A stretch of DNA of 64,000 nucleotides from Janibacter sp. DB-40. Its GTDB lineage: Bacteria > Actinomycetota > Actinomycetes > Actinomycetales > Dermatophilaceae. Location: the NCBI RefSeq assembly GCF_029510815.1, contig NZ_CP120360.1:1240001-1304000 (forward strand). The letters are read 5' to 3'. Position 1 is the stretch's first letter. Each line of letters opens with the position of its first letter. Of the stretch, positions 23,949 to 54,724 are shown piece after piece. A program made the position numbers and the translations under genes. The notes beneath the pieces were generated by a model. It did no database searches. It had not been told where the DNA came from and saw only the letters and a list, made by a program, of their open reading frames with translations.

Positions 23949-25882
23949 CGGTCCTCCGTGGGGATCAGGGACTGCGGGATGTCGACGTGCCGTGCGCGGA
24001 GCCACTCGCCCAGGCCCTTGGCCTGCGGGTCGAAGCGCGCGTTGTAGGCCACGCCCTCACCGAGGAGTCCCTCGATGACGATGTTGACGGCACGCAGGTT
24101 GGGCAGGCGGGTGAGGGTGATCGGCAGGTCGGCCGCCTCGGGGAGCAGCTCGCGGACGCGCTCGGTGGTCAGTAGCTCGGACAACCACGGCCACGCGGCG
24201 TCCTCGCGCACCCACACACCGATGTTGGCGTTGCCGCCCTTGTCCCCGGAGCGGGCGCCGGCGACCCTCCCCAGCGGGGCGCGGACGGTGGCGCCCTCCC
24301 ACTCCCTTCGCAACTGCTTAGGCTCCTGCGAGGTGTGGGGGCCGTGCTCGTGCAACTGCTTAGGCTCTTGCGAGGTGTGGGGGTGCTGCCCGTGCAACTG
24401 CTTAGGCTCTTGCGAGGTGTGGGGGTGCTGCCCGTGCAACTGCTTGGGCTCCTGCGAGGTGTGGGGGTGCTGCCCGTGCAACTGCTTAGGCTCTTGCGAG
24501 GTGTGGGGGTGCTGCCCGTGCAACTGCTTAGGCTCTTGCGAGGTGTGGGGGTCCGTCAGGGGCTCGAGCGGACGCGTCACCGTCGGTGGTTCGATCTGCT
24601 CCACGCTCCCGTCGTCCAGGACGACCTCGTGCCGGGGCGCCGACTGCGGGACGTGGCCGGGGGTGAAGACCCCGTAGGGCGTCGCCGCCGCCGGCGGGGC
24701 GAGGGTGTGCCAGCCGGGGTAGGAGCCCAGTGCGATCTCGATGGCGGCGTTGGAGAAGGGGCGTCCGACGACCGCTGTGTCCGGGTCCCGGGCGACGACC
24801 GTCAGCAACGCCGCGGCCTGCTGCTGTGTCGCCGGGTCCGCGGTGTCGGTGCGCGCCAGCGTCCACGTCAGCTCGGCGGGGGAGGTGGTGAGCGCGTCGT
24901 GGAACTGGCGCTGGACGAGGTCCGACTTGGCCTCGATGTCCAGTCCGGTCAGGGCCATCGTCATCTCGTTGCGGAAGCCCCCGAGGGACGTCAGTGACAC
25001 CTTGACGTCCGGTGGTGGGGCCTCCCCGCGCACCCCGGTGATCGAGACCCGGTCGGTGCCGTCCTGGCGAAGGGAGATCGAGTCCAGTCGGGTGGTGACG
25101 TCCGGGCCGGCGTAGCGCGCGTCCTGCACCTCGTAGAGCAGCTGGCTGGTGACGGTGCCGACGGTGACCGCACCGGCCGTGCCCGGGTGCTTGGTGATCA
25201 CGCTCGACCCGTCAGGGAGGATCTCGGCGATCGGGAAGCCCGGGTGGACGAGGTCGGCGACCTCGGTGAAGAAGGCGTAGTTGCCACCTGTCGCCTGCGT
25301 GCCGCACTCGATGACGTGGCCCGCGACCGTGGCTCCGGCGAGGGCGTCGAGGTCGTCGCGGCCCCACCCGAAGCGGGCGATCGCCGGGCCGACGATGACC
25401 GACGCGTCGGTGACCCGGCCGGTGACGACGACGTCCGCGCCCGAGGCGACGGCACGGGCGATGCCGAAGCCGCCGAGGTAGGCGTGCGCGCCCAGCGGCG
25501 TGCCGAGGTCGAGTTCGTCGGCGCGCGGGGTCAGGTCGTCACCGCGCACGTGGGCGACGGTGGGGGAGAGGCCCTGCTCGGCCGCCAGCGCGCGGATCGC
25601 GGCGACCAGGCCCGGGGTGTTGACGCCCCCTGCGTTGGCGACGATCGTCACGCCCCGGTCCAGGGCGAGCCCGAGGCAGTCGCGCAGCTGCGTCAGGAAG
25701 GTCTTGGCGTACCCGGTGCTCTCGTCCTTGGCGCGGTCGCGGGCGAGGATGAGCATCGTCAGCTCGGCCAGCCAGTCCCCGGTCAGGACGTCCAGCTCGC
25801 CGCCCTCGAGCATCTCCCGCATCGCGGAGAGCCGGTCGCCGTAGAAGCCGGAGCAGTTGCCGACGCGCAACATCTCTGTCAT
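23945..25882 (-). CDS. AtuA-like acyclic terpene utilisation family protein with inserted repeat linker
   Basis: 645-aa protein. Residues about 4-440 form the AtuA/DUF1446 domain (VGNCSGFYGDRLSAMREML, ANAGGVNTPGLVAAI, GRVTDASVIVGP, ECGTQATGGNYAFF). AtuA is needed for citronellol/geraniol growth in Pseudomonas, but its reaction is not known. Residues about 444-524 are six tandem 14-residue units built around PHTSQEPKQLHGQ, encoded by a 42-bp DNA repeat. Residues about 535-640 are the small C-terminal domain with ARSGDKGGNANIGVWVRED. The repeats separate the two domains without breaking the frame. Start 25882 overlaps the DinB-like gene stop by 4 nt. Confidence 0.87.
   Translation of the reverse strand: MTEMLRVGNCSGFYGDRLSAMREMLEGGELDVLTGDWLAELTMLILARDRAKDESTGYAKTFLTQLRDCLGLALDRGVTIVANAGGVNTPGLVAAIRALAAEQGLSPTVAHVRGDDLTPRADELDLGTPLGAHAYLGGFGIARAVASGADVVVTGRVTDASVIVGPAIARFGWGRDDLDALAGATVAGHVIECGTQATGGNYAFFTEVADLVHPGFPIAEILPDGSSVITKHPGTAGAVTVGTVTSQLLYEVQDARYAGPDVTTRLDSISLRQDGTDRVSITGVRGEAPPPDVKVSLTSLGGFRNEMTMALTGLDIEAKSDLVQRQFHDALTTSPAELTWTLARTDTADPATQQQAAALLTVVARDPDTAVVGRPFSNAAIEIALGSYPGWHTLAPPAAATPYGVFTPGHVPQSAPRHEVVLDDGSVEQIEPPTVTRPLEPLTDPHTSQEPKQLHGQHPHTSQEPKQLHGQHPHTSQEPKQLHGQHPHTSQEPKQLHGQHPHTSQEPKQLHEHGPHTSQEPKQLRREWEGATVRAPLGRVAGARSGDKGGNANIGVWVREDAAWPWLSELLTTERVRELLPEAADLPITLTRLPNLRAVNIVIEGLLGEGVAYNARFDPQAKGLGEWLRARHVDIPQSLIPTEDR
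24310..24551 (+). repeat. Tandem repeat array 1 (6 x 42 bp, 20-bp core), inside the atuA-like gene
   Basis: Six units begin at 24310, 24352, 24394, 24436, 24478 and 24520. Each starts with the core GCAACTGCTTAGGCTCTTGC (variants: CTCCTGC in units 1 and 4, TTGGGC in unit 4), followed by a 22-bp linker beginning GAGGTGTGGGGG; the last unit is cut short. The core, in opposite orientation, is the same as in array 2 at 54481-54724, but the linkers differ. Since 42 is a multiple of three, the array is translated in the minus-strand gene. The near-identity of the units points to recent amplification. Confidence 0.9.
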
Positions 25883-26637
25883 CGCCGGGCCCCCTTCGGC
25901 GCCCCGGCGAAGGCCTGGGCGAAGGTCAACCAGTGGGTGGCCTCCCCGGTGGCGACCAGGTCGGTGTCGGCGAGATCGCGCCGCTGAGTGACCACGAGGC
26001 AGAAGTCCTCGGCCGTGCCGGTGACCCGGTCCGCACCCTCCTCGCCCCAGGTCCACAGGTCCCCGTCGGGTGCGGTCAGGTCGACGTGGAAGGGAGCGGG
26101 CGGCACCGGCTGGTCCGTGATCAGGTAGGCGAAGTCGCGGGTGCGCACGCCGAGGTGGCAGATGTCGCGCAGCCGGTCGGTCGGCTCGCGGCGCACACCC
26201 AGGGCGTCGGCGACATCCTGCCCGTGCGCCCAGGTCTCCATCAGGCGGGCGGTGGCCATCGAGCGGGCGCTCATCGGTGGCCCGAACCACGGCAGCTTCG
26301 TCGCGGGGGTGGAGCGAAGGGCGTCGGCCAGCTTCTCGCGGCCGGTGCGCCACCGCGCCAGCAGCTCGACCGGGGGAGCGGCTGCTCCCTTCGCCGCCTG
26401 CTCGTCCACGTGTCCCGTGACGTTCTGCAGGGCCGCCTCCACCTCTCCGGCGAACGCCTCGGGAGCGGTCGCGGCGAGGAGGGCGACCTCGTCGGTCCAC
26501 GCCAAGTGCGCAATCTGGTGGGCGATGGTCCACCCCTGCGCCGGGGTGTCGCGGGCCCACGTCCGCTCGTCGAGGGGGGCGACGAGGGCGTCGAGATCGG
26601 TGCACTCATCGAGGAAGGCGGCCACGGTGTCGCTCAT
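25879..26637 (-). CDS. DinB/MDMPI-fold metal-binding protein (TIGR03084-like)
   Basis: 252-aa protein of the mycothiol maleylpyruvate isomerase/DinB superfamily. The metal-site histidines of this fold appear in WTIAHQIAHLAWTDE and LMETWAHGQDVADALG. Homologues of this type are typical members of actinobacterial acyl-CoA clusters, with no assigned reaction. It is the first gene of the seven-gene operon, started at ATG 26637 rather than the upstream ATG 26676, which would run through the promoter palindrome. Its stop overlaps the atuA-like start by 4 nt. Thiol-dependent chemistry is possible but unproven. Confidence 0.8.
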   Translation of the reverse strand: MSDTVAAFLDECTDLDALVAPLDERTWARDTPAQGWTIAHQIAHLAWTDEVALLAATAPEAFAGEVEAALQNVTGHVDEQAAKGAAAPPVELLARWRTGREKLADALRSTPATKLPWFGPPMSARSMATARLMETWAHGQDVADALGVRREPTDRLRDICHLGVRTRDFAYLITDQPVPPAPFHVDLTAPDGDLWTWGEEGADRVTGTAEDFCLVVTQRRDLADTDLVATGEATHWLTFAQAFAGAPKGARR

Positions 26638-26669
26638 GCGGCGAGAGTGCCACGCATCCAGCAAACAAT

Positions 26670-26681
26670 CAAGCATGCTTG
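26670..26681. promoter_or_regulatory. Palindromic operator in the divergent promoter of the acyl-CoA cluster
   Basis: The perfect 12-bp palindrome CAAGCATGCTTG lies in an AT-rich stretch between the divergent genes. Rightward, TTGTTT (26679-26684), 17 nt, TACCGT (26702-26707) and 7 nt to the ATG make a textbook leaderless promoter whose -35 overlaps the palindrome. Leftward, TTGATT, 17 nt, CACTCT and 6 nt to the ATG form a similar but weaker set, also with the -35 touching it. The TetR protein of the operon is the probable ligand. Confidence 0.65.
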
Positions 26682-26714
26682 TTTTATTCGGGGTTCGTGG
26701 CTACCGTCGCCGTC

Positions 26715-27860
26715 ATGCGCCTCACCGATGAGCACACCGCCTTCCGCGCCAGCGTGCGCGCCTTCGTCGAGTCCGAGATCAACCCGCACGTGGACGCGTG
26801 GGAGGAGGCCGGGATGTTCCCGGCCCACGAGCTCTTCCCGAAGGCGGCCGCCCTGGGTCTGCTGGGTCTCGAGCGCGACCCCGAGTACGGAGGCGAGGGC
26901 GCGGACCACTCCTTCCAGATGGTCGCCGCCGAGGAGCTCGGCCGCGCCGACGCCGCCGGGGTGGCCATGGCGCTGGGGGTGCAGTCGATGATGGCCACGC
27001 CCTCGCTCGCCACCTTCGGCACGCCGGACCTGAAGCGCGCGTACCTGGCGCCCGCGCTCGCGGGCGAGCAGGTCGCCGCGATCGCGGTGACCGAGCCGGA
27101 CACCGGCTCGGACGTCTCCCGGCTGCGCACCCGCGCGGTCCGCGACGGCGACGACTGGGTGATCACCGGCCGCAAGACCTACATCACCAACGGCAGCCAG
27201 GCGGACTGGCTCTGCCTGCTCGTGCGCACCTCCGACGAGGGCGGGTACCGGGGCATGTCCCAGGTCATCGTCCCGACCGACTCGCCCGGCTTCGCCGTCG
27301 CCAAGCGCCTGGACAAGCTCGGCAACCGCTGCTCCGACACCGCCGAGCTCGTGCTCGACGAGGTGCGCGCGCCCGTGGCCAACACCATCGGCGAGGTCGG
27401 GCGCGGCTTCCAGCAGCAGATGCAGCAGTTCATCATCGAGCGGATGTACGCCGCCTACTCCTCCGTCGGCAGCTGCGACCGGGCACTGGAGCGCACCCGC
27501 GCCTACATCACCGAGCGCGAGGTCTTCGGCCAGCCGCTGGCCACCAAGCAGTACGTCACCTTCTGCCTGACCGAGCTGCAGGCGCAGGTGGAGATGCTGC
27601 GCAACCACAACGCCGCCGTCTGCGAGGCGTACCTCGCCGGCGAGGACATCACGCGTGGCGCCAGCATCGCCAAGCTGACCGCCGGTCGCCTCGCCCGCGA
27701 GGTCGCCGATGCGTGCATCCAGTTCCACGGCGGCATGGGCTACATGGAGGAGACGTGGACCGCGCGCTTCTTCCGTGACACCCGCCTGGGCTCCATCGGC
27801 GGTGGCGCCGACGAGGTCATGCTCCAGGTCCTGGCGCGGCTCGACGGACTGCCGGCCTGA
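26715..27860 (+). CDS. Acyl-CoA dehydrogenase (second, divergent)
   Basis: 381-aa acyl-CoA dehydrogenase beginning MRLTDEHTAFRASVRAFVES. Motifs are IAVTEPDTGSDVSRLRTRA, GRKTYITNGSQADWLC, and C-terminal QFHGGMGYMEETWTARFFRD and SIGGGADEVML. As in the first dehydrogenase, Gly replaces the common EGT glutamate, a feature of isovaleryl/branched-chain types. The ATG at 26715 is preceded at 7 nt by a -10 element, so the mRNA is probably leaderless; an in-frame upstream start at 26679 lies inside the promoter. It likely forms a unit with the SDR gene 58 nt downstream. Confidence 0.9.
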   Translation: MRLTDEHTAFRASVRAFVESEINPHVDAWEEAGMFPAHELFPKAAALGLLGLERDPEYGGEGADHSFQMVAAEELGRADAAGVAMALGVQSMMATPSLATFGTPDLKRAYLAPALAGEQVAAIAVTEPDTGSDVSRLRTRAVRDGDDWVITGRKTYITNGSQADWLCLLVRTSDEGGYRGMSQVIVPTDSPGFAVAKRLDKLGNRCSDTAELVLDEVRAPVANTIGEVGRGFQQQMQQFIIERMYAAYSSVGSCDRALERTRAYITEREVFGQPLATKQYVTFCLTELQAQVEMLRNHNAAVCEAYLAGEDITRGASIAKLTAGRLAREVADACIQFHGGMGYMEETWTARFFRDTRLGSIGGGADEVMLQVLARLDGLPA

Positions 27861-27918
27861 CCCCCTTCGCCCCGGTACGCTCACCCGACCGGACGACCCC
27901 ACCCCAAGGAGATCGACC

Positions 27919-28746
27919 ATGACCCGCACCCTCGCCGGCCGCACCATCCTCATGTCGGGCGGCAGCCGCGGCATCGGGCTGGCCATCGCCGAGCGCGCCG
28001 CCCGGGACGGCGCCAACGTCGCGATCGTCGCCAAGACCGACACCCCGCACCCGAAGCTCGAGGGCACCATCCACACGGCCGCGGCGGCCATCGAGGCGGC
28101 CGGCGGTCAGGCCCTACCGATCCTTGGGGACGTGCGGTCCGAGGAGTCAGTCCAGGAGGCCGTGGACCGCGCCGTCGAGCGCTTCGGTGGCATCGACATC
28201 GTCGTCAACAACGCCAGCGCCATCGACCTGTCCTCCACGGCGGACCTGTCGATGAAGAAGTACGACCTGATGCAGGACATCAACACCCGCGGGTCCTTCC
28301 TCCTGGCGAAGACCGCGCTGCCGCATCTGCAGGCCTCTGACGCAGCGCACGTGCTCACCCTCTCGCCGCCGCTCAACCTCAACCCGCGGTGGGCGGGCGC
28401 GCACCTCGGCTACACGATCGCCAAGTACGGCATGAGCCTGGTGACGCTGGGACTGGCGGAGGAGTGGCGCGAGCTCGGCATCGCGGCCAACAGCCTGTGG
28501 CCGCGCACGGCCATCGCCACTGCGGCCGTGCAGAACCTCCTCGGCGGCGAGCAGACGATGGCTCGCAGCCGCAGCCCGCAGATCATGGCCGACGCGGCCC
28601 ACGCGATCCTCACCCGCGACCCCGCCGAGTGCACCGGGCAGTTCCTCATCGACGACGAGGTCCTCGCGCAGGAGGGCGTCACCGACCTCTCCGTCTACGG
28701 GCCGCCACTCGAGGAGCTGCTGCCCGACTTCTTCCTCGACGAGTGA
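27919..28746 (+). CDS. Short-chain dehydrogenase/reductase (HSDL2/AtuB-AtuG-like)
   Basis: 275-aa NAD(P)-binding SDR. The cofactor motif GGSRGIGLAIAERAA is at residues about 14-28, NNAS at the expected place, and the active-site YTIAK with Tyr and Lys is in LGYTIAKYGMSLV. The Ser of the usual triad is expected in LTLSPPLNL. C-terminal ACTGQF/LIDDEVL-type ends are common to the HSDL2-like group often found in acyl-CoA clusters. AAGGAG lies 8 nt upstream of the ATG. In atu pathways two SDRs oxidise terpene alcohols or hydroxyacyl intermediates; the precise substrate is open. Confidence 0.87.
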   Translation: MTRTLAGRTILMSGGSRGIGLAIAERAARDGANVAIVAKTDTPHPKLEGTIHTAAAAIEAAGGQALPILGDVRSEESVQEAVDRAVERFGGIDIVVNNASAIDLSSTADLSMKKYDLMQDINTRGSFLLAKTALPHLQASDAAHVLTLSPPLNLNPRWAGAHLGYTIAKYGMSLVTLGLAEEWRELGIAANSLWPRTAIATAAVQNLLGGEQTMARSRSPQIMADAAHAILTRDPAECTGQFLIDDEVLAQEGVTDLSVYGPPLEELLPDFFLDE

Positions 28747-28749
28747 GGC

Positions 28750-29832
28750 TCAGCCCAGGTCGAGGGTGATGAACTTCGGCCGGTAGAGCGTCGGGTTGTT
28801 CATCAGCTCGTCGAAGTCGAAGGTGTTTACGTTGTAGGAGATGAGCAGCCGGCCGTCCTGCGACAGCTCGGGGTGGCCGTGCGCGTTGTAGGTGAAGTGC
28901 TGTCCCTGCGTCTCGGGCGTCTCGTAGATCGTCTGCGGCTGCTCCCACGGGCCGGTGGGGGAGCAGGCCGTCCACGCGTTGATCTTCGGGCTGTACGGCT
29001 CGGAGGTGTCCGAGGAGATCATCAGGTACCCGTCGCGGAAGGGGGAGACGCTCAGCTCGTTGGCCACCCCCTTCGTCAGGCGCTCGCTCTCGTCGGAGTC
29101 GTCCTCCCAGCCGTCCGCGCCGAGGTACTCCCACGTCGAGCGGTCGGCGAGGGAACCCGCGGGCGCGCGCGCCACGTGCAGGTGCTTGGCCTCCTCGCGG
29201 TCCTCGATGCCGTAGATCCACGTGTGCTGCGCCGTCGACATCAGCCCCGCGCCCCACGCGACCGGCCCCTCGAAGCCCTCCTCGATGTCGGTGACCTCCA
29301 GCTCGGGCAGCGACACGTGGGCGAGGGTGTTGCGCTCCCACTCGAAGCCGTTCTCGCCGACCTGCTTGGTCCGGGAGAGGAGGACGAGCAGCTCGCCACC
29401 CTCGACCTTGGCGTCCTGCACCCAGTAGTAGGTCTTCTCGCCCGGGTCCGGGAAGAAGGACTCCGGTCCCTCGCGCGTCAGCGTGCTCAGCCGGCCGGAC
29501 CCGTCCTCGACGACGAGGGCGTTGTGCACCATCGTCATCCCCGGCTCCGGGTTGCCGTTGTCGTCGACGCGTCCGATGAGCGAGTCGCTGAAGAGCCACA
29601 GCGTGCGGTCCTGCGGCAGCCGGACCGAGTAGGTCGAGTCGCCGCCGATCCACCCGGGCCCGGACACCTCGAACCGGGCGTCGTCGGAGCGCGAGGGCTG
29701 TGCCCAGTCGAAGTCGGCGGAGATCGCCTCGCAGTCGCCGCGGTCCCGATCCCTCTCCTCGGAGCACCCGGCGAGCAGACCAGCGCCGACCGCGAGCACG
29801 GCGCAGACCGCGGTCAGGCGTCTGCGGTGCAT
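28750..29832 (-). CDS. Exported lipoprotein with DUF4185/beta-propeller-like domain
   Basis: 360-aa product. The signal peptide MHRRRLTAVCAVLAVGAGLL is followed by the lipobox LLAGC, so Cys22 should be lipidated by Lgt and processed by LspA. The mature part has repeated aromatic beta-strand blocks such as TLWLFSDSLIG, YYWVQDAKVEGGELLVL, HTWIYGIEDRE, DGYLMISSDTSEPYSPKI and FTYNAHGHPELSQDGRLLISYN, resembling DUF4185 or five-bladed-propeller carbohydrate-related proteins. No catalytic residues can be named. The start at 29832 was chosen by the signal peptide. It converges with the SDR gene with a 3-nt gap. Confidence 0.75.
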   Translation of the reverse strand: MHRRRLTAVCAVLAVGAGLLAGCSEERDRDRGDCEAISADFDWAQPSRSDDARFEVSGPGWIGGDSTYSVRLPQDRTLWLFSDSLIGRVDDNGNPEPGMTMVHNALVVEDGSGRLSTLTREGPESFFPDPGEKTYYWVQDAKVEGGELLVLLSRTKQVGENGFEWERNTLAHVSLPELEVTDIEEGFEGPVAWGAGLMSTAQHTWIYGIEDREEAKHLHVARAPAGSLADRSTWEYLGADGWEDDSDESERLTKGVANELSVSPFRDGYLMISSDTSEPYSPKINAWTACSPTGPWEQPQTIYETPETQGQHFTYNAHGHPELSQDGRLLISYNVNTFDFDELMNNPTLYRPKFITLDLG

Positions 29833-29935
29833 GCGGGCTCCTGGCGAAGGGGGGCGGGTCGCCTCCCATTGTGACCGACGCGTAGCCACGGGTCGGCGTG
29901 CGCCCCGCCCAGCGATCGCAGCGCCGGTCAGGGGG

Positions 29936-30442
29936 TCACCCGGGCGGGGTCCTCTCCGCGAGTCGACGCCCCAGCTCGCCGCCCCACTCGCGGGCCCGGT
30001 CCAGCTCGCCGGGCAGCAGCGGGCCCTCGTAGTCCTCGACGTAGAACGTCTCCGGCTCGGCCAGCACGGTGCAGCCCATGCGCTTCAGCTTCCTGGCCGC
30101 TCCGTGGCCCGCGTGCCCGGGCAGGTTCGGGTGGCGCACGTGGGTGTCGAAGGTGGCGACCATCAGCTGCGCGCTGCCCTCGGCGAGCCACTCACGCACG
30201 CCTGTCGCGAGCTGCCGGCCACCCCGCCGGTGGGCGTCCTCCCGGGTCGAGGGCCGGCTGAGCCCGAAGGCCTGGGTGGGAGCCCCCACCACGAGCAGGT
30301 CGACGCGCAGGTCCGGCAGCGGCGGCGCGTCAGCCACGGCCACCACCTCGGTGGTCAGGTGGGCGCCGAGACCGGCCGCGATCGCCTCGGCGACGGCCCG
30401 CGTGTTCCCCCAGGCCGACTCGTGGACGACGATGGCGTTCAT
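29936..30442 (-). CDS. Flavodoxin-family protein
   Basis: 168-aa protein with the flavodoxin fold. The phosphate-binding loop for FMN is ESAWGNTRAVAEAI near the N-terminus, and the second flavin loop region is LLVVGAPTQAFGLSRPSTRE. It resembles flavodoxin/NAD(P)H oxidoreductase domains found alone in many actinobacteria, with no fixed partner. It lies 1 nt beyond the stop of the upstream small membrane protein gene, so the two form a transcription unit. The redox partner is unknown. Confidence 0.82.
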   Translation of the reverse strand: MNAIVVHESAWGNTRAVAEAIAAGLGAHLTTEVVAVADAPPLPDLRVDLLVVGAPTQAFGLSRPSTREDAHRRGGRQLATGVREWLAEGSAQLMVATFDTHVRHPNLPGHAGHGAARKLKRMGCTVLAEPETFYVEDYEGPLLPGELDRAREWGGELGRRLAERTPPG

Positions 30443-30443
30443 C

Positions 30444-30665
30444 TCAGCGCCGGATCCCGCGGGTGAAGTAGACGAGGGGGCCGACGAAGCTGATGGCGAT
30501 CACCGCCGCCCACCGTCCCTTGCCGCCGCGCACCTCGCTCGTCGGCCGGAACGCCAGGTCGGTCCAGGCAGTGAGGGCCAGGGACAGCTGGATCGAGGCC
30601 AGGGTCAGCACGGTGGTCTGCTGTCCGGGGCTCAGGTCGTCCCAGCTGCGCTTCCCGCGGGTCAT
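30444..30665 (-). CDS. Small membrane protein, PLDc_N-like
   Basis: 73-residue protein with two hydrophobic helices (TTVLTLASIQLSLALTAW and WAAVIAISFVGPLVYFTRG) separated by a short basic loop FRPTSEVRGGKGR. The pattern recalls the PLD-nuclease N-terminal (PLDc_N) membrane family. ATG 30665 is preceded by GGGGAG, which decides against the longer start at 30692. Function unknown. It is followed after 1 nt by the flavodoxin gene. Confidence 0.7.
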   Translation of the reverse strand: MTRGKRSWDDLSPGQQTTVLTLASIQLSLALTAWTDLAFRPTSEVRGGKGRWAAVIAISFVGPLVYFTRGIRR

Positions 30666-30742
30666 GTCGTCTCCCCTCGACGTCGGATCCATGGAAGATC
30701 CACCCTCACCTGTGATTGTCGCACGGTGCTGGTGAGCTGCGG

Positions 30743-31347
30743 TCAGAGCCAGCCGAGATCCTGGGCGCGGCGGGCGGCCTCCACGCGGGTGGCGGAGCCG
30801 GTCTTGCCGATGGCCGAGGAGAGGTGGTTGCGCACCGTGCCGGGGAGAGGTGCACCCGCGCGGCGATGGCGGCCGCCGAGCCGCCCTCGAGGGCGTGGGT
30901 GAGCACCTCGCGCTCGCGCTCGGTGAGCGGGTTGGGCCCGCCGACGACGCTCTCGGTCGCGAGCGAGGGGTCGACCACCCGACCGCCCCGGGCGACGGTG
31001 CGCACGGCCTCCGCCAGCTCCTCGGACGGCGTGTCCTTGACGACGAAGCCCCGCGCGCCCGCCTCGATCGCCCGGCGCAGGAAGCCGGGGCGACCGAAGG
31101 TCGTGACGATGAGCACCCTGGTCCCGGGGACCTCGCGGGCCAGCTCGGCGGTGGCGGCGATGCCGTCCATCCCCGGCATCTCGATGTCGAGCACGGCGAC
31201 GTCGGGGTGGGTGCGGCGTGCCGCCTCGAGCACCTCGTCGCCCGAGCCGACCTCGGCCACGACCTCGAGGTCGTCCTCGAGCCCGAGCAGCGCGGCCATC
31301 GCCCCGCGCACGAGTGCCTGGTCGTCGGCGAGCAGGACGGTGGTCAC
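30743..31347 (-). pseudogene. NarL/LuxR-type response regulator, frameshifted in the HTH domain
   Basis: The receiver domain is intact: TTVLLADDQALVRGAM with the acidic pair, phospho-acceptor Asp in PDVAVLDIEMPGMDG, Thr in VTTF and Lys in FVVKDTPSEE. The HTH begins LTEREREVLTHALEGGSAAA, but at the G4 run 30842-30845 the frame shifts. The expected continuation GTVRNHLSSAIGKTG is found in the neighbouring frame and ends at 30743. One added base in that run would restore a 201-aa protein. GTG 31347 overlaps the kinase stop (GTGA). As read, DNA binding would be lost; a sequencing error is the main alternative. Confidence 0.8.
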
Positions 31348-34233: not shown

Positions 34234-34276
34234 GGCCCAAGCCTCGTGCGCCGCAGGGGATCGCCACCATCCCCGG

Positions 34277-34305
34277 ATGTCACGAGTCGGGCATGACAGG
34301 TGTCA
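34277..34305. promoter_or_regulatory. TGTCA/TGACA repeat cluster upstream of the ABC-kinase operon
   Basis: Within 29 bp there are TGTCA, TGACA and TGTCA again. The last two form the palindrome TGACAGGTGTCA (34294-34305), and the first two form a wider inverted pair. The block lies 44-72 bp upstream of the ATPase start. NarL-type regulators bind short inverted heptamers, so this could be the site for the downstream response regulator. The role is inferred only. Confidence 0.35.
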
Positions 34306-44796: not shown

Positions 44797-44839
44797 CCGG
44801 CGAGTATCCCGCACGCGGGGCGCCCATCGGACGCGCGCG

Positions 44840-45679: not shown

Positions 45680-45713
45680 GGGCCCATCGTGGCACCGGTT
45701 CCCCAGCGGCCAC

Positions 45714-46277: not shown

Positions 46278-46292
46278 CGTTCCCCCTTCGGG

Positions 46293-47063: not shown

Positions 47064-47134
47064 GTCCTGACCGTACGGCCGGATGCCGCGCAACAGTAGG
47101 CTGTGTGGTGCCGAGTGGTCCGGGAAGTGGTGCG

Positions 47135-49873
47135 ATGACGCAGCAGGAGACAGGGTCCGGACTCGCGCACGCCCTGCGTGGCGAGTGGCCCTTCACGAGC
47201 CGTGACGCCGAGCTGCACCTCGTCACCGAGCTGCTGGGCCCCACCAACGGCAACCCGACCGGCCCACGGGGCGCGGTCGTGGTGGCACCCGCCGGCGTCG
47301 GTAAGACCAGGCTGCTGCGCGAGGTGCGCTGGTGGGCGGAGTCCCGGGGGCTGCCGACCTCATCGGTCATCGCCACCCGCGCGGCCTCGCGCACTCCCTA
47401 CGGCGCTGTGCTGCACCTGCTGCCCGAGGGCGCGGCCGACCACCCGGATCCGGCCGCGTGGCACGGATCGTTCTCCGCGCAGCTGCGGTCGCAGGGGCGG
47501 CGGACGGTGGTCCTGGTCGACGATGCGCACCACCTGGACCAGGCGAGTGCGGCCCTGCTGCTGCAGCTGAGTCTGGACGGCGTGGCGATACCGGTGGTCA
47601 CGGTGCGGCGCGGGGAGAGCGTCCCGGACCCGGTCACTGCGCTCTGGAAGGACGACCTCGCGCTGCGGGTGGACCTGCAGCCGCTCTCGACGGCGGAGAT
47701 GGGTGGACTGATCCGCCGGGCACTGGGCGGACCGGTCAGCGACCGCACCGTCGCACGCCTGACCGCGGTCAGCGGCGGCAACGTGCTCTATGCCCGCGAA
47801 CTGGTCATGGCCGCGGCCGAGCGAGAGTCCCTGAAGGTCCGGGACGGGGTGTGGATGTGGGACGAGGAGCTCGTCCTCGCACCCCGACTGGTGGACGCGG
47901 TCTGGGCCCGTCTCGAGGCACTGGACCCGGCCGAGCGGCACGCCCTGGCCGCGGTGGCCATCGGCGAACCCCTGCCGCTGGGCGTGGCCGAGGCCCTCGC
48001 CTCGACGGACGTGCTCTCGGCGTTGGAGGAGATCGGACTCGTGCACGTGGACGACTCCGACGGTCGCGGGGTCCTGCGGCTGGGGCACCCGCTCTACGGC
48101 GAGGTGCTCCTGGCGCGGATCGGCTCGATCGGGCGACGGCGGATGGTGGGCGCCCTCGCGGAGGCCTTCGATGCGGCCGACCCTCGCGAGGCAGAGGCTT
48201 CGCTCGTGCGGGTCGTGACCTGGCGCCTGGACGCCGGTCGCTTGCAGAGCCGGGAGACGTTGCTGGACGCCGCGATCCGGGCCAATCAGGTCTTCGCGCA
48301 CCCGCTGGCGGCACGGTTGGCGCGGGCGGCACTGGAAGCCGGGGACGCCGACCCAGCCGAGCGGGCGCCGGTTGTCATCGAGCTCGGTCGGGCGCTGGTG
48401 GGCTGCAACCGTGCCGAGGAGGCCCTTCCCCTGCTGACCGAGATCGAGGAGGCGGTGCTCGCGAGTACCGACCCGCACCTCGTCGACGACTACGTCGAAG
48501 TGCGCTTCCGGGCGAAGTACTACGGCCTCGGGCACGGCGACGAGGTCGAGGCTCTGCTGGAGCGTGTCCGCAGCGCGGCCCGGGCCCCGGAGGATGGCGA
48601 GAGCACCCCGAGTCGTGCGGACCGACTCGCGCCCTACCGGGCGAGCATCGCGTTTGGCCGCGGCCAACCGCGAGCGGCGCTCGACATCGTCGAGCCACTG
48701 CTGGAGCGCTCGGACCTCGCCCCGCTCCACCGACTGATGGTCCTGGAGATCGCCGGCGAGTCACTGGGTGCGCTCGGTCTGCACCGGCAGGCGGCGGAGG
48801 TGTGGGACCGTCTGCGGCAGTTCCCGGTCGGAGCCACGGCCCGGGCCTCGGGGGCTGCGGCCGAGGCCGACCTCCAGGCCGTCTTCGCGGGCATGCTGGA
48901 CGGCCGGATGACGGACGTGCTCCCGGTGCTCACCGCGGTCCACGCCACGCTGTCCGACAGCCCCGACGTGGTCAACCGCGGGCTGGCGTGCCTGGGGCTG
49001 GGCCGCGCCCTCCTGCACGTCGGCCGGCTCGCGCAGGCCCGCGCCGTGCTCCTGGACGCCGCGGAGGACTTCCGCAAGGTCGACCTGGGGGAGTCGCTGT
49101 CCTGGGCGCTCACCCTGCTCAGCCTGACGGCGTCGCTCAGCCAGCGGGTGGAGCGGGCGCGGCGGCGCCGGGACGAGGCCACGACGGCCCGGCGGGGACC
49201 CGGGCCCGCCTGGCAGGCCGCCGACGTCGTCAGCGCGGACGTGTGGCTCAAGGTTGCCGAGGGGGATCGCACGGGAGCCGCAGCGATCGCCCTCGCGGGG
49301 GCGGAGCAGTACCCGCAGCTGGAGCTGTCCCGGGCCGGCCTGCTCCACCTGGCCTGCCGGTTGGGCGAGCGGAGTGCGGAAGTGACCACCTCCCTTCGCC
49401 GGATCGCGGATCGCTCCGAGTGCGAGTACCCGACCCTGCTCGCGGACCATGCGGACGCGATGCGGGCCGGTGACCGGCGCGCCCTGGAGGAGGCGACCGA
49501 GCGCTTCGCCGAGCGCGGGCTGATCCCACTGGCGGTCGAGGCCGCGATGCAGGCGGCACACGCCCATCGGGACGTGGGGTCGGCCGACGGGGCGCGACGC
49601 ATGACCGGCCGGGCGCAGATCCTGGCCCGGCAGATCGACGGCGGGATCGACCAGACGCTCGTCCCGCACGAGCCGGTCATCGGCCTGAGTCGTCGTGAGC
49701 AGGAGGTGGCGGCGCTGGCCGCGGCCGGGATGAGCAATGCGGACATCGCGCAGCGACTCGTGGTCTCCGTGCGCACGGTCGAGTCCCACCTGTACCAGGT
49801 CTTCGCCAAGCTCGGCATCACCTCCCGTGCCGACCTCGAGCGGTACCTGCCACCGTCCCTGGGGTCGTCCTGA
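47135..49873 (+). CDS. Large LuxR-family transcriptional regulator with AAA ATPase domain
   Basis: 912-aa STAND/LAL-type regulator. The Walker A motif VVVAPAGVGKTRLL is at residues 48-61, and Walker B VVLVDDAHHLD follows near residue 130. A long helical, TPR-like region spans about residues 330-800. The C-terminal LuxR HTH contains LSRREQEVAALAAAGMSNAD, then IAQRLVVSVRTVESHLYQVF. Start at ATG 47135; the frame is open upstream, but that is antisense to the reductase gene. Immediately downstream lie two palindromes that are good candidates for its own binding sites. Confidence 0.9.
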   Translation: MTQQETGSGLAHALRGEWPFTSRDAELHLVTELLGPTNGNPTGPRGAVVVAPAGVGKTRLLREVRWWAESRGLPTSSVIATRAASRTPYGAVLHLLPEGAADHPDPAAWHGSFSAQLRSQGRRTVVLVDDAHHLDQASAALLLQLSLDGVAIPVVTVRRGESVPDPVTALWKDDLALRVDLQPLSTAEMGGLIRRALGGPVSDRTVARLTAVSGGNVLYARELVMAAAERESLKVRDGVWMWDEELVLAPRLVDAVWARLEALDPAERHALAAVAIGEPLPLGVAEALASTDVLSALEEIGLVHVDDSDGRGVLRLGHPLYGEVLLARIGSIGRRRMVGALAEAFDAADPREAEASLVRVVTWRLDAGRLQSRETLLDAAIRANQVFAHPLAARLARAALEAGDADPAERAPVVIELGRALVGCNRAEEALPLLTEIEEAVLASTDPHLVDDYVEVRFRAKYYGLGHGDEVEALLERVRSAARAPEDGESTPSRADRLAPYRASIAFGRGQPRAALDIVEPLLERSDLAPLHRLMVLEIAGESLGALGLHRQAAEVWDRLRQFPVGATARASGAAAEADLQAVFAGMLDGRMTDVLPVLTAVHATLSDSPDVVNRGLACLGLGRALLHVGRLAQARAVLLDAAEDFRKVDLGESLSWALTLLSLTASLSQRVERARRRRDEATTARRGPGPAWQAADVVSADVWLKVAEGDRTGAAAIALAGAEQYPQLELSRAGLLHLACRLGERSAEVTTSLRRIADRSECEYPTLLADHADAMRAGDRRALEEATERFAERGLIPLAVEAAMQAAHAHRDVGSADGARRMTGRAQILARQIDGGIDQTLVPHEPVIGLSRREQEVAALAAAGMSNADIAQRLVVSVRTVESHLYQVFAKLGITSRADLERYLPPSLGSS

Positions 49874-49881
49874 CCGGGGAC

Positions 49882-49897
49882 CAGTAGTCGACTACTG
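49882..49897. promoter_or_regulatory. Perfect 16-bp palindrome upstream of the 65-codon gene
   Basis: CAGTAGTCGACTACTG is a perfect palindrome 9 nt after the LuxR gene stop. The identical flanks (CCAGTAG...ACTGAGG) recur around the copy at 50132. It lies 35 bp before the ATG of the small gene. LuxR-type HTH domains bind such symmetric sites, so the regulator encoded just upstream is the prime candidate. Confidence 0.6.
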
Positions 49898-49932
49898 AGG
49901 TGCCCGCGATCCCGTCGTGTTGGGGTGTGGAC

Positions 49933-50130
49933 ATGACGAGCAGCGAGTGGGAGAGGCGGGTCGATGCGATGTCGCCGGCCCACGGCGTCGCTCTCCGGCT
50001 GCGGCGCGCAGGCTACGAGAACGTCGTCATCGCCACCGCCCTCGGGGTCCCCGTGGAGTCGGTGCCCGCACTGGTGCTGGTGGCGCAGGGCAAGCTCGAG
50101 CGCGACAGCGATGACCCGGTGGAGGCGTAA
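49933..50130 (+). CDS. Small HTH-like protein bracketed by palindromes
   Basis: 65-residue product starting MTSSEWERRVDAMSPAHGVA. The segment LRLRRAGYENVVIATALGVP followed by VESVPALVLVAQGKLER resembles the helix-turn-helix of sigma factor region 4 or similar domains, with the short acidic tail DSDDPVEA. I do not recognise a named family. An alternative GTG start lies at 49900. Palindromes end 35 bp before the ATG and begin 1 bp after the TAA. Its position behind the LuxR regulator suggests a regulated accessory factor. Confidence 0.55.
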   Translation: MTSSEWERRVDAMSPAHGVALRLRRAGYENVVIATALGVPVESVPALVLVAQGKLERDSDDPVEA

Positions 50131-50131
50131 C

Positions 50132-50147
50132 CAGTAGTCGACCACTG
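50132..50147. promoter_or_regulatory. Second palindrome (one mismatch) downstream of the 65-codon gene
   Basis: CAGTAGTCGACCACTG differs at one base from the perfect palindrome at 49882-49897 and has the same flanks (C before, AGG after). It begins 1 nt after the TAA of the small gene and is followed by a hairpin at 50211-50246. Confidence 0.6.
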
Positions 50148-50210
50148 AGGCGTCGGTCGGCTGCGCGAGCCTACTGTCAGGTCAGTACAGATCTCCGGGG
50201 GGAGAGAAGT

Positions 50211-50246
50211 GAGGGGCCCGTCCGGGGTGAGCCGGAGGGGCCCCTC
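50211..50246. terminator. Hairpin between convergent transcription units
   Basis: GAGGGGCCC (50211-50219) pairs with GGGCCCCTC (50238-50246), and inside it TCCGG (50221-50225) pairs with CCGGA (50232-50236) around a GGTGAG loop. That makes about 14 paired positions. It lies between the plus-strand small gene and the minus-strand oxidoreductase gene, so it can serve both directions. No U-tract. Confidence 0.65.
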
Positions 50247-50264
50247 CTCACGTGCGGTGGGTGC

Positions 50265-50909
50265 TCAGTGACCGACGGTGAACCGCTGCCGCGGGTGGTC
50301 ACCGCGCTCGATCTCGTCGACGTAGGCCTTCGCGTAGTCGGTGCCGGAGATCTCGGAGGAGCCGTCGTCCTTGACGACCAGCTCATCGATACCCAGGCGG
50401 TACTCACCCGTGGTCTCGCCCGGAGCGAAGGAGCCGAAGAGCGCTGCGGGGGAGACGTAGAACCAGTCCAGCTCCGCCGGGGCCTCGCGGATCGCGTCGA
50501 GGACCTTCGCGTGGGCGAGCGCCTCCGGCTTCCAGTCCTCATGGAAGTCGGGGGTGTCGACGAGGCGGGGACCCCCCTTCGCCACGTGGAGGGTGCCGGC
50601 GCCGCCGACGAAGGACAGCCGCGCACCGTGCTCGATCGCGGCCCGCACGAGGCGGTCGACGTGGTCGACCAGCGGGGAGCCGCCGACGTCCTGCCCGTGG
50701 GTGGCGACGACGAGGTCGTCGGCGTCGGCCGCGGCCCGGGCGAGGACGGTGTCGTCGGTCAGCGACCCGGTGCGGTACTCCACACCCTCGCTGCGCTCGC
50801 TCGGCTCGCTGCGGCTGTAGGAGATGACCCGGAGGCCGCGGGATACGGCCTCGCGGGCGATGGAGCCGCCGGCGTAGCCGGTGCCGCCGAGGATGACGAT
50901 CGTGGACAT
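50265..50909 (-). CDS. NAD(P)H-binding SDR-like oxidoreductase (NmrA/YwnB type)
   Basis: 214-aa atypical SDR. The dinucleotide-binding motif VILGGTGYAGGSIAREAV is at the N-terminus; ISYSRS follows the second strand, typical of NADP(H)-preferring members. Further conserved points are LSFVGGAGTLHV and WFYVSPAALFGSF. Related proteins act as reductases or redox sensors. It is the second gene after the LLM flavin monooxygenase, with a 31-nt gap, and both are probably cotranscribed. The substrate is unknown. Confidence 0.82.
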   Translation of the reverse strand: MSTIVILGGTGYAGGSIAREAVSRGLRVISYSRSEPSERSEGVEYRTGSLTDDTVLARAAADADDLVVATHGQDVGGSPLVDHVDRLVRAAIEHGARLSFVGGAGTLHVAKGGPRLVDTPDFHEDWKPEALAHAKVLDAIREAPAELDWFYVSPAALFGSFAPGETTGEYRLGIDELVVKDDGSSEISGTDYAKAYVDEIERGDHPRQRFTVGH

Positions 50910-50940
50910 GGGTGGACCTTTCGTTGGGGTTGGGTTGGGT

Positions 50941-51990
50941 TCAGGCAGGAAGGGGGGTGACGGCGCCCTCGGTGTTGGGACGCCAGCCGAGGGACGGGGC
51001 GACGTGCTCGGCGAAGGCCCGCAGCACGTGCAGGTTGTAGTCCACGCCGAGCTGGCTGGGGATCGCGAGCATGACGGTGTCCGCTGCGGCGATCGCCGGG
51101 TCGTCCTTGAGCTGCTCGACGAGGACGTCCGGCTCGTCGGCGTAGGTGCGGCCGAAGGTCGAACGCAGGTTGTCGATGACCCCGATCTGGTCGCTGGAGG
51201 CCTGACCGCGCAGACCGAAGAGCTGCCGGTCGATGTCGCTGACGATGGGGAAGATGCTGCGGGAGACCGACACCCTCGGGGCCCAGTCGTGCCCGGCCTC
51301 GCGCCACGCGGCGCGGTAGCGGTCGATCTGCTCGCGCTGCAGCTCGCTGAAGGAGGCGCCGGTGGCCTCGGTGAGCAGGGTCGAGCTCATGAGGTTCACG
51401 CCCTGGCGGGCGGTCCACTCGGCGGTCTCGCGGCTGCCGGCACCCCACCAGATGCGACGGTCGAGGCCGGGGGAGTGCGGCTCGACGCGCAGTCGACCGG
51501 CCGGACCCATCTGCGGGTCGGCGTCGACGAGTTGTTCGCCGCGGATCGCGGACATGAAGCCGTCGAAGTGCTCGTGGGCGATGTCGGCACCGCGCGGGTC
51601 GTCCGAGCCGGTGTAGCCGAAGGCCTCCCAGCCACGCTTCGCGGGCTCGGGTGATCCCCGGGAGACGCCGAGCGCGACACGGCCGTCGGCAATGAGGTCG
51701 AGGGCGGCGGCCTCCTCGGCGAGGTGCAGCGGGTTCTCGTAGCGCATGTCGATGACGCCGGTGCCGACCTCGATCCCGCGGGTGCGGGCGGCGATCGCCG
51801 ACAGCAGTGGCATGGGGGAGGCGGCCTGTCGGGCGAAGTGGTGGACGCGGAAGTACGCGCCGTTCACCCCCAGCTGGTCGGCGCCGACACCGATCTCGAC
51901 GGCGTCGTGGAGGGCCTGGCGGGCGTCGGGGTCACCGAGTCCCGTCCCGTGGCCGTAGTGACCGAAGCTGAGGAATCCGAAGGCATGCAC
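50941..51990 (-). CDS. LLM class flavin-dependent oxidoreductase (luciferase-like monooxygenase)
   Basis: 349-aa TIM-barrel flavoenzyme. The GTG at 51990 gives MHAFGFLSFGHYGHGTG, which matches the usual start of this family; the longer open frame upstream crosses the divergent gene. Seen inside are VHHFARQAASPMPLLSAIAA, VGTGVIDMRYENPLHLAEEA, RVALGVSRGSPEPAKRGWE and IWWGAGSRETAEWTA. No ribosome site is evident. It is divergent from an Old Yellow Enzyme gene, so the shared 58-bp region probably controls both redox genes. The substrate is unknown. Confidence 0.87.
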   Translation of the reverse strand: MHAFGFLSFGHYGHGTGLGDPDARQALHDAVEIGVGADQLGVNGAYFRVHHFARQAASPMPLLSAIAARTRGIEVGTGVIDMRYENPLHLAEEAAALDLIADGRVALGVSRGSPEPAKRGWEAFGYTGSDDPRGADIAHEHFDGFMSAIRGEQLVDADPQMGPAGRLRVEPHSPGLDRRIWWGAGSRETAEWTARQGVNLMSSTLLTEATGASFSELQREQIDRYRAAWREAGHDWAPRVSVSRSIFPIVSDIDRQLFGLRGQASSDQIGVIDNLRSTFGRTYADEPDVLVEQLKDDPAIAAADTVMLAIPSQLGVDYNLHVLRAFAEHVAPSLGWRPNTEGAVTPLPA

Positions 51991-52048
51991 GATCGGTGCA
52001 ACATGGTTGATTGTGAAAGTATTTCCGCGCTTTGCGAGGATGGGTGCC

Positions 52049-53122
52049 ATGACCTCCACCCCTGACCTGCACGACGGCCTCGACCTGGTCCACGGACCCT
52101 CCTGGGCCAACCGCTTCGCCCTCGCGCCGCTGACCAACACCCAGAGCAACGCCGACGGCACCCTCTCCGACGACGAGTACCGCTGGCTGGTGGCCCGCGC
52201 CGAAGGGGGCTTCGGCCTGACGATGACCTGCGCCACCTACGTCGCGCCGGCCGGGCAGGCCTGGGCCGGGCAGCTCGGCATCAGCGACGACCGGCACCTG
52301 CCGGGGCTGACCCGTCTGGCCGACGGGATCCGCGCGACAGGGAGCGTGTCCTCGGTGCAGCTGCACCACGCCGGCCGGCGGGCCAACCCGGAGGTGCACG
52401 GTGGACCGAATGTCGCCCCGTGGGACGACGCCGGGAAGAACACCCGGGCGCTGACCACCGCGGAGGTGGAGCAGGTGGTCGAGGACTTCGTCGTCGCCGC
52501 CGGGCGTGCCGAGCGGGCGGGCTTCGACGGGGTCGAGGTGCACGGCGCCCACGGCTACCTGCTCACGCAGTTCCTCGACGGCCGCCACAACGACCGCACC
52601 GATGGCTACGGCGGCTCCCTCGAGGACCGCTCGCGGGTGCTCCTCGACGTGCTGCGCGGCGTGCGCGAGGGCACGCGCGAGGACTTCCAGGTCGGCGTGC
52701 GGCTCACCCCGCAGGGCAACGGCGTGGTCCTCGAGGAGGGCGTCACCGTCGCGCAGTGGGTCCTCGACTCCGGCCTCGTCGACTACGTCGACATGTCGCT
52801 GTGGGACGCCTTCGCGACCGTCGACGACGGGGGATCCCTCCTCATCGACCGGTTCACCCGGCTGCCCCGCGGCGCCACCAGGCTCGGGGTGGCGGGCAAG
52901 ATCCGCACGAGCGAGCAGGCGCGTTGGTGCATGGAGCACGGCGCGGACTTCGTCGACCTGGGGCGCGCGGCGATCGTGCACCACGACTTCCCGCGCCGGG
53001 CGGTCGACGCCGACTTCGCGATGGCGCAGCTGCCGGTGACCCGTGAGCACCTGCGTACCGAGCGCGTGGGCGAGGACTTCATCGACTACCTCGACGCCGG
53101 GTGGCCGGACTTCGTGGCGTGA
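52049..53122 (+). CDS. NADH:flavin oxidoreductase (Old Yellow Enzyme family)
   Basis: 357-aa FMN TIM-barrel reductase. Characteristic segments are NRFALAPLTNTQSNADGTLS, SVQLHHAGRRANPEV, the catalytic-site region GVEVHGAHGYLLTQFLDGRH, NDRTDGYGGSLEDRSRVLLD and, near the end, GADFVDLGRAAIVHHDFP. ATG 52049 has GAGGA 8 nt upstream; ATG 52040 has no room for a ribosome site. Such enzymes reduce enones, nitro compounds or xenobiotics. The stop overlaps the GTG of a downstream MFS gene (GTGA), so they are coupled. Confidence 0.9.
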   Translation: MTSTPDLHDGLDLVHGPSWANRFALAPLTNTQSNADGTLSDDEYRWLVARAEGGFGLTMTCATYVAPAGQAWAGQLGISDDRHLPGLTRLADGIRATGSVSSVQLHHAGRRANPEVHGGPNVAPWDDAGKNTRALTTAEVEQVVEDFVVAAGRAERAGFDGVEVHGAHGYLLTQFLDGRHNDRTDGYGGSLEDRSRVLLDVLRGVREGTREDFQVGVRLTPQGNGVVLEEGVTVAQWVLDSGLVDYVDMSLWDAFATVDDGGSLLIDRFTRLPRGATRLGVAGKIRTSEQARWCMEHGADFVDLGRAAIVHHDFPRRAVDADFAMAQLPVTREHLRTERVGEDFIDYLDAGWPDFVA

Positions 53123-54474
53123 GCAGCCCGGGGCTGCTCTTCACCACCCTGGTCCTCCTCACGACCATCACCGCCGTCGCCGGCAGCCTCGGTGCCCCGC
53201 TCGTGCCCGGCATCGCCCGCGACTTCGACGTCTCGCTCACCGCGGCCCAGTGGTCGTTGACCCTGACGATGCTCGCCGGTGCCGTCGCGACCCCCGTCAT
53301 CGGGCGGTTGTCCGGCGGGCGGGCCCGCATGCGTGCCGTGGTCCTCGGTCTCGGTGGGGCGACGCTGGGTGGCCTGCTGTGCGCGCTCCCGCTCGGCTTC
53401 GGTGCCTTCCTCGCCGGCCGCACACTGCAGGGGCTGGGCTACGGCCTCACCCCCGTGGCCATCGCGATCGCGCGCGAGGCCATCCCGCGGCACCGACGCG
53501 CCGGCGCCATCGCGACCCTGTCGGTCACCACCGTCGCGGCCGCGGGCCTGGGCTATCCGGTCGCGGCCGTCATGGCCGACCTGTGGGGGATCCGGGTCGC
53601 CTTCGGCGTCGCCACCGCACTGTGCGCGGCCACCCTGGTGCTGGCGCTGCTGACGCTCCCGCCGAGCCCGGACACCGAGGGCACCCGGGTCGACTGGTGG
53701 GGCACCGTGCTCCTCGCCGGGGGGACGACGGCGATCCTCATCGCGTTGGCCGAGGTGTCCGTGCTCCCGATCGGCCGCGTCGCGCTCCTGGCCACCGTCG
53801 GCATCGCCGCCTGCGCCGCCTGGGTGTGGTGGAGCCGCCGCGTGGCCCACCCCCTGGTCGACGTCACCCTGGCCGGACGGCCGGTCCCGCTGCTGACGCA
53901 CGTCACCTCGATGCTGCTGGGCGTGGGCGTCTACCTGCTCTTCCCGCTCGTCGTCATCGTCGTGCAGGACCCGACGTGGGGGATGGGGTACGGGGCGACC
54001 GTCGCCGGCCTGCTGCTCGTGCCCTACGCCCTCGCCAGTGTCGTCGGCAGTCGCCTGAGCCAGCGCCTCATGACGCGGGTCGAGGCCACGAGGCTGCTCC
54101 CGCTGGGATCGGCGACCTACCTCTCGGCCTTCGTGCTGCTGGTCGTCGCTCACGACACCGTCTGGCAGCTGCTGCTCGCCATGGCCGTCGCGGGCCTGGG
54201 CAGCGGCCTGACCTTCGCCGGTATCCCGGGCCTGCTCGTCGCCTCGGTGCCGCGGTCGGAGACCGGCAGTGCCATCGCCTTCACGATGGTCGTGCGCTAC
54301 CTGGGCTTCTCCGTCGGCTCCGCCCTGGCCGTGACGGCTCTGACCTTCGGTGGCGAAGGGGGTGAGGCCGGTTTCGTGCGCGCCCTCCTCGTCGCATGCG
54401 CGGTGGGCGTCCTCACGGTCGTCCTCACCACGTGGCTGTCGTTGCGGGTGCGAGGGGGCGTCGGGCGCTGGTGA
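53119..54474 (+). CDS. MFS transporter (DHA2-like exporter)
   Basis: 451-aa membrane protein with roughly 14 hydrophobic segments, starting LLFTTLVLLTTITAVAG and ending VVLTTWLSLRVRGG. GRLSGGRARMRAVVLGLGG matches MFS motif A, and GRTLQGLGYGLTPVAIAIAR resembles motif C/B of drug exporters. GTG 53119 overlaps the OYE stop, linking an ene-reductase with an exporter. Drug or xenobiotic efflux is plausible. It is followed immediately by repeat array 2. Confidence 0.87.
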   Translation: MSSPGLLFTTLVLLTTITAVAGSLGAPLVPGIARDFDVSLTAAQWSLTLTMLAGAVATPVIGRLSGGRARMRAVVLGLGGATLGGLLCALPLGFGAFLAGRTLQGLGYGLTPVAIAIAREAIPRHRRAGAIATLSVTTVAAAGLGYPVAAVMADLWGIRVAFGVATALCAATLVLALLTLPPSPDTEGTRVDWWGTVLLAGGTTAILIALAEVSVLPIGRVALLATVGIAACAAWVWWSRRVAHPLVDVTLAGRPVPLLTHVTSMLLGVGVYLLFPLVVIVVQDPTWGMGYGATVAGLLLVPYALASVVGSRLSQRLMTRVEATRLLPLGSATYLSAFVLLVVAHDTVWQLLLAMAVAGLGSGLTFAGIPGLLVASVPRSETGSAIAFTMVVRYLGFSVGSALAVTALTFGGEGGEAGFVRALLVACAVGVLTVVLTTWLSLRVRGGVGRW

Positions 54475-54480
54475 GCGGGT

Positions 54481-54724
54481 GCAAGAGCCTAAGCAGTTGC
54501 GGGAGAGGACTCGCAGGAGCCTAAGCAGCTGCGGGAGAGGACCCGCAAGAGCCTAAGCAGTTGCGGGAGAGGACCCGCAGGAGCCTAAGCAGCTGCGGGA
54601 GAGGACCCGCAAGAGCCTAAGCAGCTGCGGGAGAGGACCCGCAAGAGCCTAAGCAGTTGCGGGAGAGGACCCGCAGGAGCCTAAGCAGTTGCGGGAGAGG
54701 GCTCGCAGGAGCCCAGGCAGTTGC
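54481..54724 (+). repeat. Tandem repeat array 2 (8 x 32 bp, same 20-bp core), between convergent genes
   Basis: Eight cores start every 32 bp from 54481 to 54705. Each is a variant of GCAAGAGCCTAAGCAGTTGC (A/G at position 4, T/C at position 17); the last copy is degenerate. The 12-bp linker is GGGAGAGGACCC or close variants. The core is the reverse complement of that in array 1 (24310-24551), but the linker is unrelated. The array fills the 256-bp gap between the MFS stop and the fahA stop. The imperfect dyad symmetry of the core (GCAA...GC....GC..TTGC) suggests a protein or RNA-structure site. Confidence 0.9.

Follow-up and report, generated by a model that had tools for sequence, protein, structure and literature searches.

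A lineage-limited family of head-to-tail, helically phased dyad repeats, mostly at gene ends, in Janibacter sp. DB-40 and its congeners

The usual explanation for repetitive extragenic palindromic (REP) elements invokes a partner transposase, and most of them occur as inverted pairs. In bacterial interspersed mosaic elements (BIMEs), the units stand in alternating order (PMC2817692, in part). For tagged REPs, the portion of PMC3733652 drawn on here gives head-to-tail dimers as absent, under-represented or negligible; it also records that untagged families exist and that two Rickettsia palindromic elements are CGTC REPs. Several insertion sequences (ISs) target REPs, including ISPsy8, ISPa11, ISPpu9 and ISPpu10 (PMC1525189, in part). 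Here we describe a repeat family recognized in a 64,000-nt stretch (the window) of the chromosome of Janibacter sp. DB-40 (NZ_CP120360.1, positions 1,240,001 to 1,304,000), where a 20-bp core, GCARGAGCCYARGCAGTTGC, forms two tandem arrays. Array 1 (24310..24551, minus strand) comprises six cores, starting at 24310, 24352, 24394, 24436, 24478 and 24520 (cores 24310-24539), with a 42-bp period and 22-bp linkers. Array 2 (54481..54724, plus strand) comprises eight, at 54481, 54513, 54545, 54577, 54609, 54641, 54673 and 54705, with a 32-bp period and 12-bp linkers. Unit numbers, periods and strands are those given in the original prediction, and the core is common to both arrays: the window holds 14 matches at up to three mismatches, against 0.01 expected from shuffles. 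Our best explanation, plausible but tentative, is a lineage-limited family of dyad repeats, set head-to-tail on the same helix face and mostly at gene ends, that would provide sites for a putative protein.

The host genome (G000, a single contig of 3.35 Mb) was compared with a sister species (G013) and further congeners (G001, G005, G014 and others); labels beginning with L denote individual DNA stretches taken from these genomes. Genome-wide, the core gave 209 matches in G000 at up to three mismatches (98 forward, 111 reverse) and the reversed control none. From the matches listed, at least 69 sites with 216 units were resolved, a few weak copies possibly being absent from this set. Two or more units are present at 58 of the 69 sites, and in all 58 the units run head-to-tail. 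Mixed-orientation arrays were found in 0/58 cases in G000, 0/31 in G013 and 0/13 in G014. Across 214 units, 12 of the 20 core columns reach a constancy of 98% or more; the outer GCA/TGC and the inner GC/GC hardly vary, and the greatest variation is at positions 4, 10, 12 and 17. Positions 5-6 fail to pair with 15-16, and this lack of pairing is conserved in G000; the dyad is therefore imperfect in most units, as had been proposed. Fully palindromic copies (GCAACTGC-NNNN-GCAGTTGC) are also present, and in some units a perfect stem of 8 bp carries a 4-base loop. One unit near 735283 is made of the other half-site twice, and G013 has two such units. The flank consensus is TC ahead of the core and G behind it, with no GTAG or CGTC tag.

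The spacing of the cores falls into two classes. In G000, 65 linkers of at most 16 bases give a mean period of 31.54 bp (standard deviation 0.96) and 80 linkers of 17-28 bases one of 41.62 bp (0.73), that is, about three or four helical turns; two linkers are longer still. Most linkers measure 11-12 or 21-23 bp, intermediate lengths of 13-19 are rare (4/147), and both classes occur together in four arrays. Computed from one linker in each of 57 arrays, phase coherence at 10.5 bp reached 0.88, compared with a maximum of 0.50 in 5000 uniform draws. Mean periods in the congeners are similar: 31.56 and 41.89 bp in G013, 31.0 and 41.86 bp in G014, and 31.37 bp for the short class of G001. Whole-turn spacing, constant orientation and the joint change of cores within species, described below, together point to protein binding on duplex DNA. 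Each core would then be a binding site for a dyad-recognizing protein, with neighbouring sites bound side by side. A nucleoid or segregation protein was among the original suggestions, and helical phasing favours protein binding. The phased direct arrays of this untagged, REP-like family, which has no REP-associated tyrosine transposase (RAYT), are probably platforms for such a putative dyad-binding protein.

Linkers of equal length within an array are near-identical (identity 0.885, 105 pairs), as predicted, and the unique spacers of clustered regularly interspaced short palindromic repeats (CRISPR) are absent; the early statement that the arrays are not a CRISPR was right as to linkers. The linkers of the two window arrays had also been called unrelated. 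The two sequences quoted indeed differ, but genome-wide, 22-bp linkers resemble one another from array to array (identity 0.50 vs 0.295 shuffled; consensus GAAGGGGG-GGGCCCGGACCTC). Short linkers show far less kinship: between-array identity was 0.40 vs 0.32 shuffled for 12-bp linkers and 0.375 vs 0.292 for 11-bp linkers.

The core itself is restricted to a few relatives. At up to one mismatch it was found in 5 of 39 genomes, its own included (196 matches in G000, 81 in G013, 25 in G014, and one each in G001 and G005), and the strict core pattern in 3 of 186 genomes of the bacterial family. A spaced-pair pattern gave 117 pairs in G000, 45 in G013, 30 in G001 and 10 in G014, with one match in the remaining 182 genomes. 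G001 carries a core of its own, WTTGCCCGGGCAGTTGC, with 413 matches at up to one mismatch and none in the other 15 congeners. Its array set consists of 24 arrays from 20 stretches and L154; 18 more G001 stretches were used solely in a scan for further cores. The layout of the family is GCA-N3-SC-N4-GS-N3-TGC. Within L221-L240 of G001, the first unit of an array is a perfect palindrome in 10 of 23 cases and later units in 5 of 101, which gives the arrays a polarity. The scan for cores also covered 120 kb each of G005, G008 and G012, not picked for arrays, and 20 kb each of G006 and G010. Further species-specific cores with the same layout were identified, for example GCATTTCCTTAAGGAAATGC, GCAAGACCCTAGGGTTTTGC and GCATTGCCGTTGGGCAATGC. 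G008 has two core kinds with periods of 42 and 32 bp (L273:6591, L277:2925, L278:3510), and G012 has two kinds with a period of 30 bp, all in one 20-kb stretch (L271:3054-3194, L271:15459-15568); minor extra cores occur in G013, e.g., at L189:11536. Near-perfect 20-bp dyads of this layout exceeded the expectation of about one in G008 (9) and G012 (5); G005 had one. No arrays were present in the 120 kb of G005, and no spaced core pairs were found in the 20 kb each of G006 and G010. Tandem repeats of a different type, with 34- and 46-bp periods, were seen at L270:2365-2468 (G012) and L279:7148-7243 (G006).

The cores of a species may shift together, following one trans-acting protein. A broader proposal, that a fast-evolving putative DNA-binding protein and phased gene-end arrays change jointly from species to species throughout the genus, keeping one architecture with a lineage-specific core and no transposase of their own, is possible but doubtful. 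Viral contigs gave no exact match to the core, and a viral origin was rejected on this result. Outside the bacterial family, 13 stretches of GTDB contigs from unrelated bacteria gave one match each, read as chance, in a collection that may omit G000 and genomes near it. The literature search found no description of the repeat, listing instead a review on Mycobacterium bovis genotyping and papers on Janibacter whose titles and abstracts do not treat such repeats, and the two 20-mers and two 16-mers tried match no paper.

Comparison with the sister species shows how the arrays change. By a strict criterion, a G013 array occupies the corresponding place for 33 of the 69 G000 sites, and 19 sites lack a matched region in G013. 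Unit number is equal in 8 of these 33 orthologous arrays and differs in 25; examples are 8 vs 3 units (array 2), 6 vs 2 (array 1) and 3 vs 1 (391154). The G013 assembly is separate, and its two- and three-unit arrays at the window loci make an assembly artefact, a concern raised at the outset, unlikely as far as can be judged. In the eight arrays with equal unit numbers, substitutions per site were 0.061 in the core, which has no gaps, 0.089 in the linkers and 0.113 in the adjacent 20 bp. Of the 24 G001 arrays, 3 lie at places of G000 arrays, and one more at the place of a G013 array. Core-plus-linker units may be gained and lost by unequal exchange or slippage.

Such turnover would also suit a selfish or neutral REP-like hairpin, spread by a lost or unrecognized transposase, expanding and contracting by slippage and serving no host function. 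The family is patchy within one genus, its neighbour genes are unrelated, 17 of 25 matches in G014 deviate from the degenerate core by a mismatch, and the perfect stem-loop units mentioned above could form hairpins. However, this explanation does not predict the strict direct order, the whole-turn spacing or the low decay of the core in G000. A RAYT-type (Y1) transposase (PF01797) was found in none of the 16 congeners, with control matches in 5 of 14 named genomes, and a RAYT partner was accordingly rejected. Nor was a target-site duplication, the mark of a miniature inverted-repeat transposable element, seen at nine sites, themselves diverged, where a relative has no array or no clear one. 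We regard selfish spread as rather unlikely.

Placement relative to genes was assessed with a home-made gene caller, on which all gene bounds and the intergenic and in-frame classes given here rest. Of the 69 G000 sites, 65 are intergenic (30 convergent, 29 tandem and 6 divergent) and four lie inside reading frames. Convergent gene ends are enriched: they account for 30 of the 65 intergenic sites vs 43 of the 361 remaining gene pairs of these stretches, and convergent gaps for 15% of the intergenic length free of arrays. Divergent sites are fewer, but not significantly so (p 0.14). Array orientation showed no bias relative to transcription at tandem sites (12 co-directional, 17 opposed) and none relative to replication in G000. 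As protein sites, the arrays could perhaps form a roadblock or an insulator where genes converge, or help to organize the chromosome. The G000 chromosome begins at dnaA (base 1), and its oriC half holds 54 of the 69 sites (binomial p 2.6e-6). G014 follows the same trend (20 sites, p 5.5e-4, origin set at base 1 from collinearity). G001 lacks the bias, and a general rule of chromosome position was discarded.

The preference for converging genes raises the alternative that the elements act in RNA, as gene-end hairpins that stop transcription or protect mRNA 3' ends. A hand-typed composite, CCCCCTTC-core-GAAGGGGG, folds at -24.9 kcal/mol (z -5.2), and pairing between the flanks in G013 is above shuffles (2/500 for all units, 10/500 for outer flanks). 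In G000 and G014, flank complementarity outside the core is at shuffle level (reached by 74 and 79 of 500 shuffles, respectively), which means that G000 does not maintain a longer hairpin stem; an extended stem was rejected, though G013 departs from this pattern. The conserved non-pairs of the G000 core also speak against an RNA-level role, as does the independence of array orientation from transcription. Array 2 has no U-tract terminator, and the window gave zero Rfam matches at gathering thresholds. Overall, we consider the RNA-level explanation improbable.

The core also serves as an insertion target. In G013, all four full-length copies of a 1-kb IS5-type element (DUF4096/DDE_Tnp_1) lie in the central CTAA of a core, at L116:1732-2755 and in L106, L131 and L132, flanked by TAA on both sides and in both orientations. 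G000 carries just a 68% relative of this IS. Stretch L116 also contains an array that follows the IS. In both G000 and G013, a nuclease-like gene with weak matches to AbiEi_4 and REase_MTES_1575/DUF559 lies between two arrays (G000, 2822737-2823690 = L032:8738-9691; G013, 3334779-3335771 = L132:2780-3772); the two genes occupy different chromosomal places and their proteins are 79.6% identical. These findings bear on the idea that the cores are recombination or homing sites, copied by a site-specific nuclease or recombinase for which they are the target. What stood of the corresponding original suggestion is the IS inserting in the core and this one array-flanked gene, with no other direct support found. 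In the 484 kb and 638 kb examined, which were chosen around arrays, each genome showed a single gene of this type, and no array lies near a 29% relative in G013. The IS is missing from G000, the genome richest in this core, and no insertion footprint was seen. Homing appears slightly more improbable than a role in RNA. Palindromic copies near 337864 and 339565 were considered as the ends of a mobile gene and rejected, since the intervening proteins appear to belong to ordinary metabolism as judged by eye (IspD by Pfam).

Several observations weigh against the protein-site explanation. The core diverges as much as the 300-bp flanks, coding sequence included (0.061 vs 0.062), so constraint on it is moderate. 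In 12 of the 16 congeners, each of the two well-counted cores has one copy or none (other cores were sought in small samples), and those two cores are therefore dispensable. In G001, 7 of 23 multi-unit arrays were flagged as mixed in orientation, and no oriC bias was detected (Kolmogorov-Smirnov p 0.56 for the 47 sites listed, with synteny putting the origin near 1.10 Mb). The neighbour genes (125 proteins) share no theme among the 25 of 254 Pfam families listed, and the flank pairing in G013 favours hairpins. The constancy of spacing may be explained in part by inheritance of one ancestral 42-bp unit, because long linkers are related between arrays. The binding protein itself was not found in this analysis.

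Within the window, array 2 occupies the gap of a convergent pair, 6 bp from each stop codon: a major facilitator superfamily (MFS) transporter gene (53119..54474, plus strand) ends ahead of it, and a fumarylacetoacetase-type gene (54731..55957, minus strand; a longer open reading frame starts at 56125) ends past it. Both proteins are 96% identical between G000 and G013, against 79.6% for the array-flanked nuclease-like protein. Array 1 lies in frame inside an AtuA-family gene (23945..25882, minus strand), a position that the original prediction overlooked; in translation, a peptide resembling QEPKQLHGQHPHTS is repeated six times between the AtuA and AtuA_ferredoxin domains. All four in-frame sites have 22-bp linkers. 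Two interrupt a gene internally, namely this AtuA gene and a transglutaminase-DUF2126 gene, and the other two lie at the start of a DUF1365 gene, whose start is uncertain, and at the end of an LPG-synthase-type gene. The array in the transglutaminase/DUF2126 gene (L039:3606-3751) encodes QEP[KR]QL repeats. Some copies of Rickettsia palindromic elements likewise lie in frame in genes; those elements differ in sequence, whereas the present family forms tandem arrays and is mostly extragenic. Other tandem repeats in the window, at 3057-3345 and 6435-6668 with periods of 15, 18, 30, 33, 66 and 120 bp, are probably coding repeats unrelated to the core.

A family that has neither transposase nor inversion, keeps whole-turn spacing and exchanges its core wholesale from one close species to another would allow spread by a transposase to be separated from upkeep as a protein site. 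The arrays also provide a clearly defined IS target and tandem markers that differ in unit number from one sister species to the other. The initial description of a dispersed, REP-like element holds for copy number, dyad form, extragenic placement at 3' ends and use as an IS target; it does not hold for the REP-type tyrosine transposase or for the head-to-tail order.

In comparison with REPs, BIMEs and REPINs, as far as part of PMC2817692 sets them out, the likeness lies in short imperfect palindromes, often in more than 100 copies, that are extragenic, clustered, species-specific and targeted by ISs. Here, the short palindrome occurs in 209 copies, 65 of 69 sites are extragenic, and the IS lies in the core in 4/4 copies in G013. 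The units run head-to-tail rather than alternating as in BIMEs, with one unit type and whole-turn spacing, and no RAYT was found in the genus. Set against the GTAG and CGTC REP super-families (PMC3733652, in part), the flank consensus bears no tag and the arrays are head-to-tail, although the 8-bp stem with a 4-base loop is the geometry of CGTC family 1, and CGTC REPs likewise occur without a dedicated transposase. As for the REP-targeting ISs (PMC1525189, in part), a palindrome again serves as the target, here of an IS5-type element in a different repeat. Three marks of REPs are lacking, namely alternating orientation (G001 being partly mixed), a RAYT partner and a GTAG/CGTC tag. The family shares with REPs its unit size, its copy number, where it lies and its use as an IS target, but not these three marks; we therefore place it near the REP kind and not within it. 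It appears to be an undescribed family, changing fast and related to the extragenic palindromic repeats already known.

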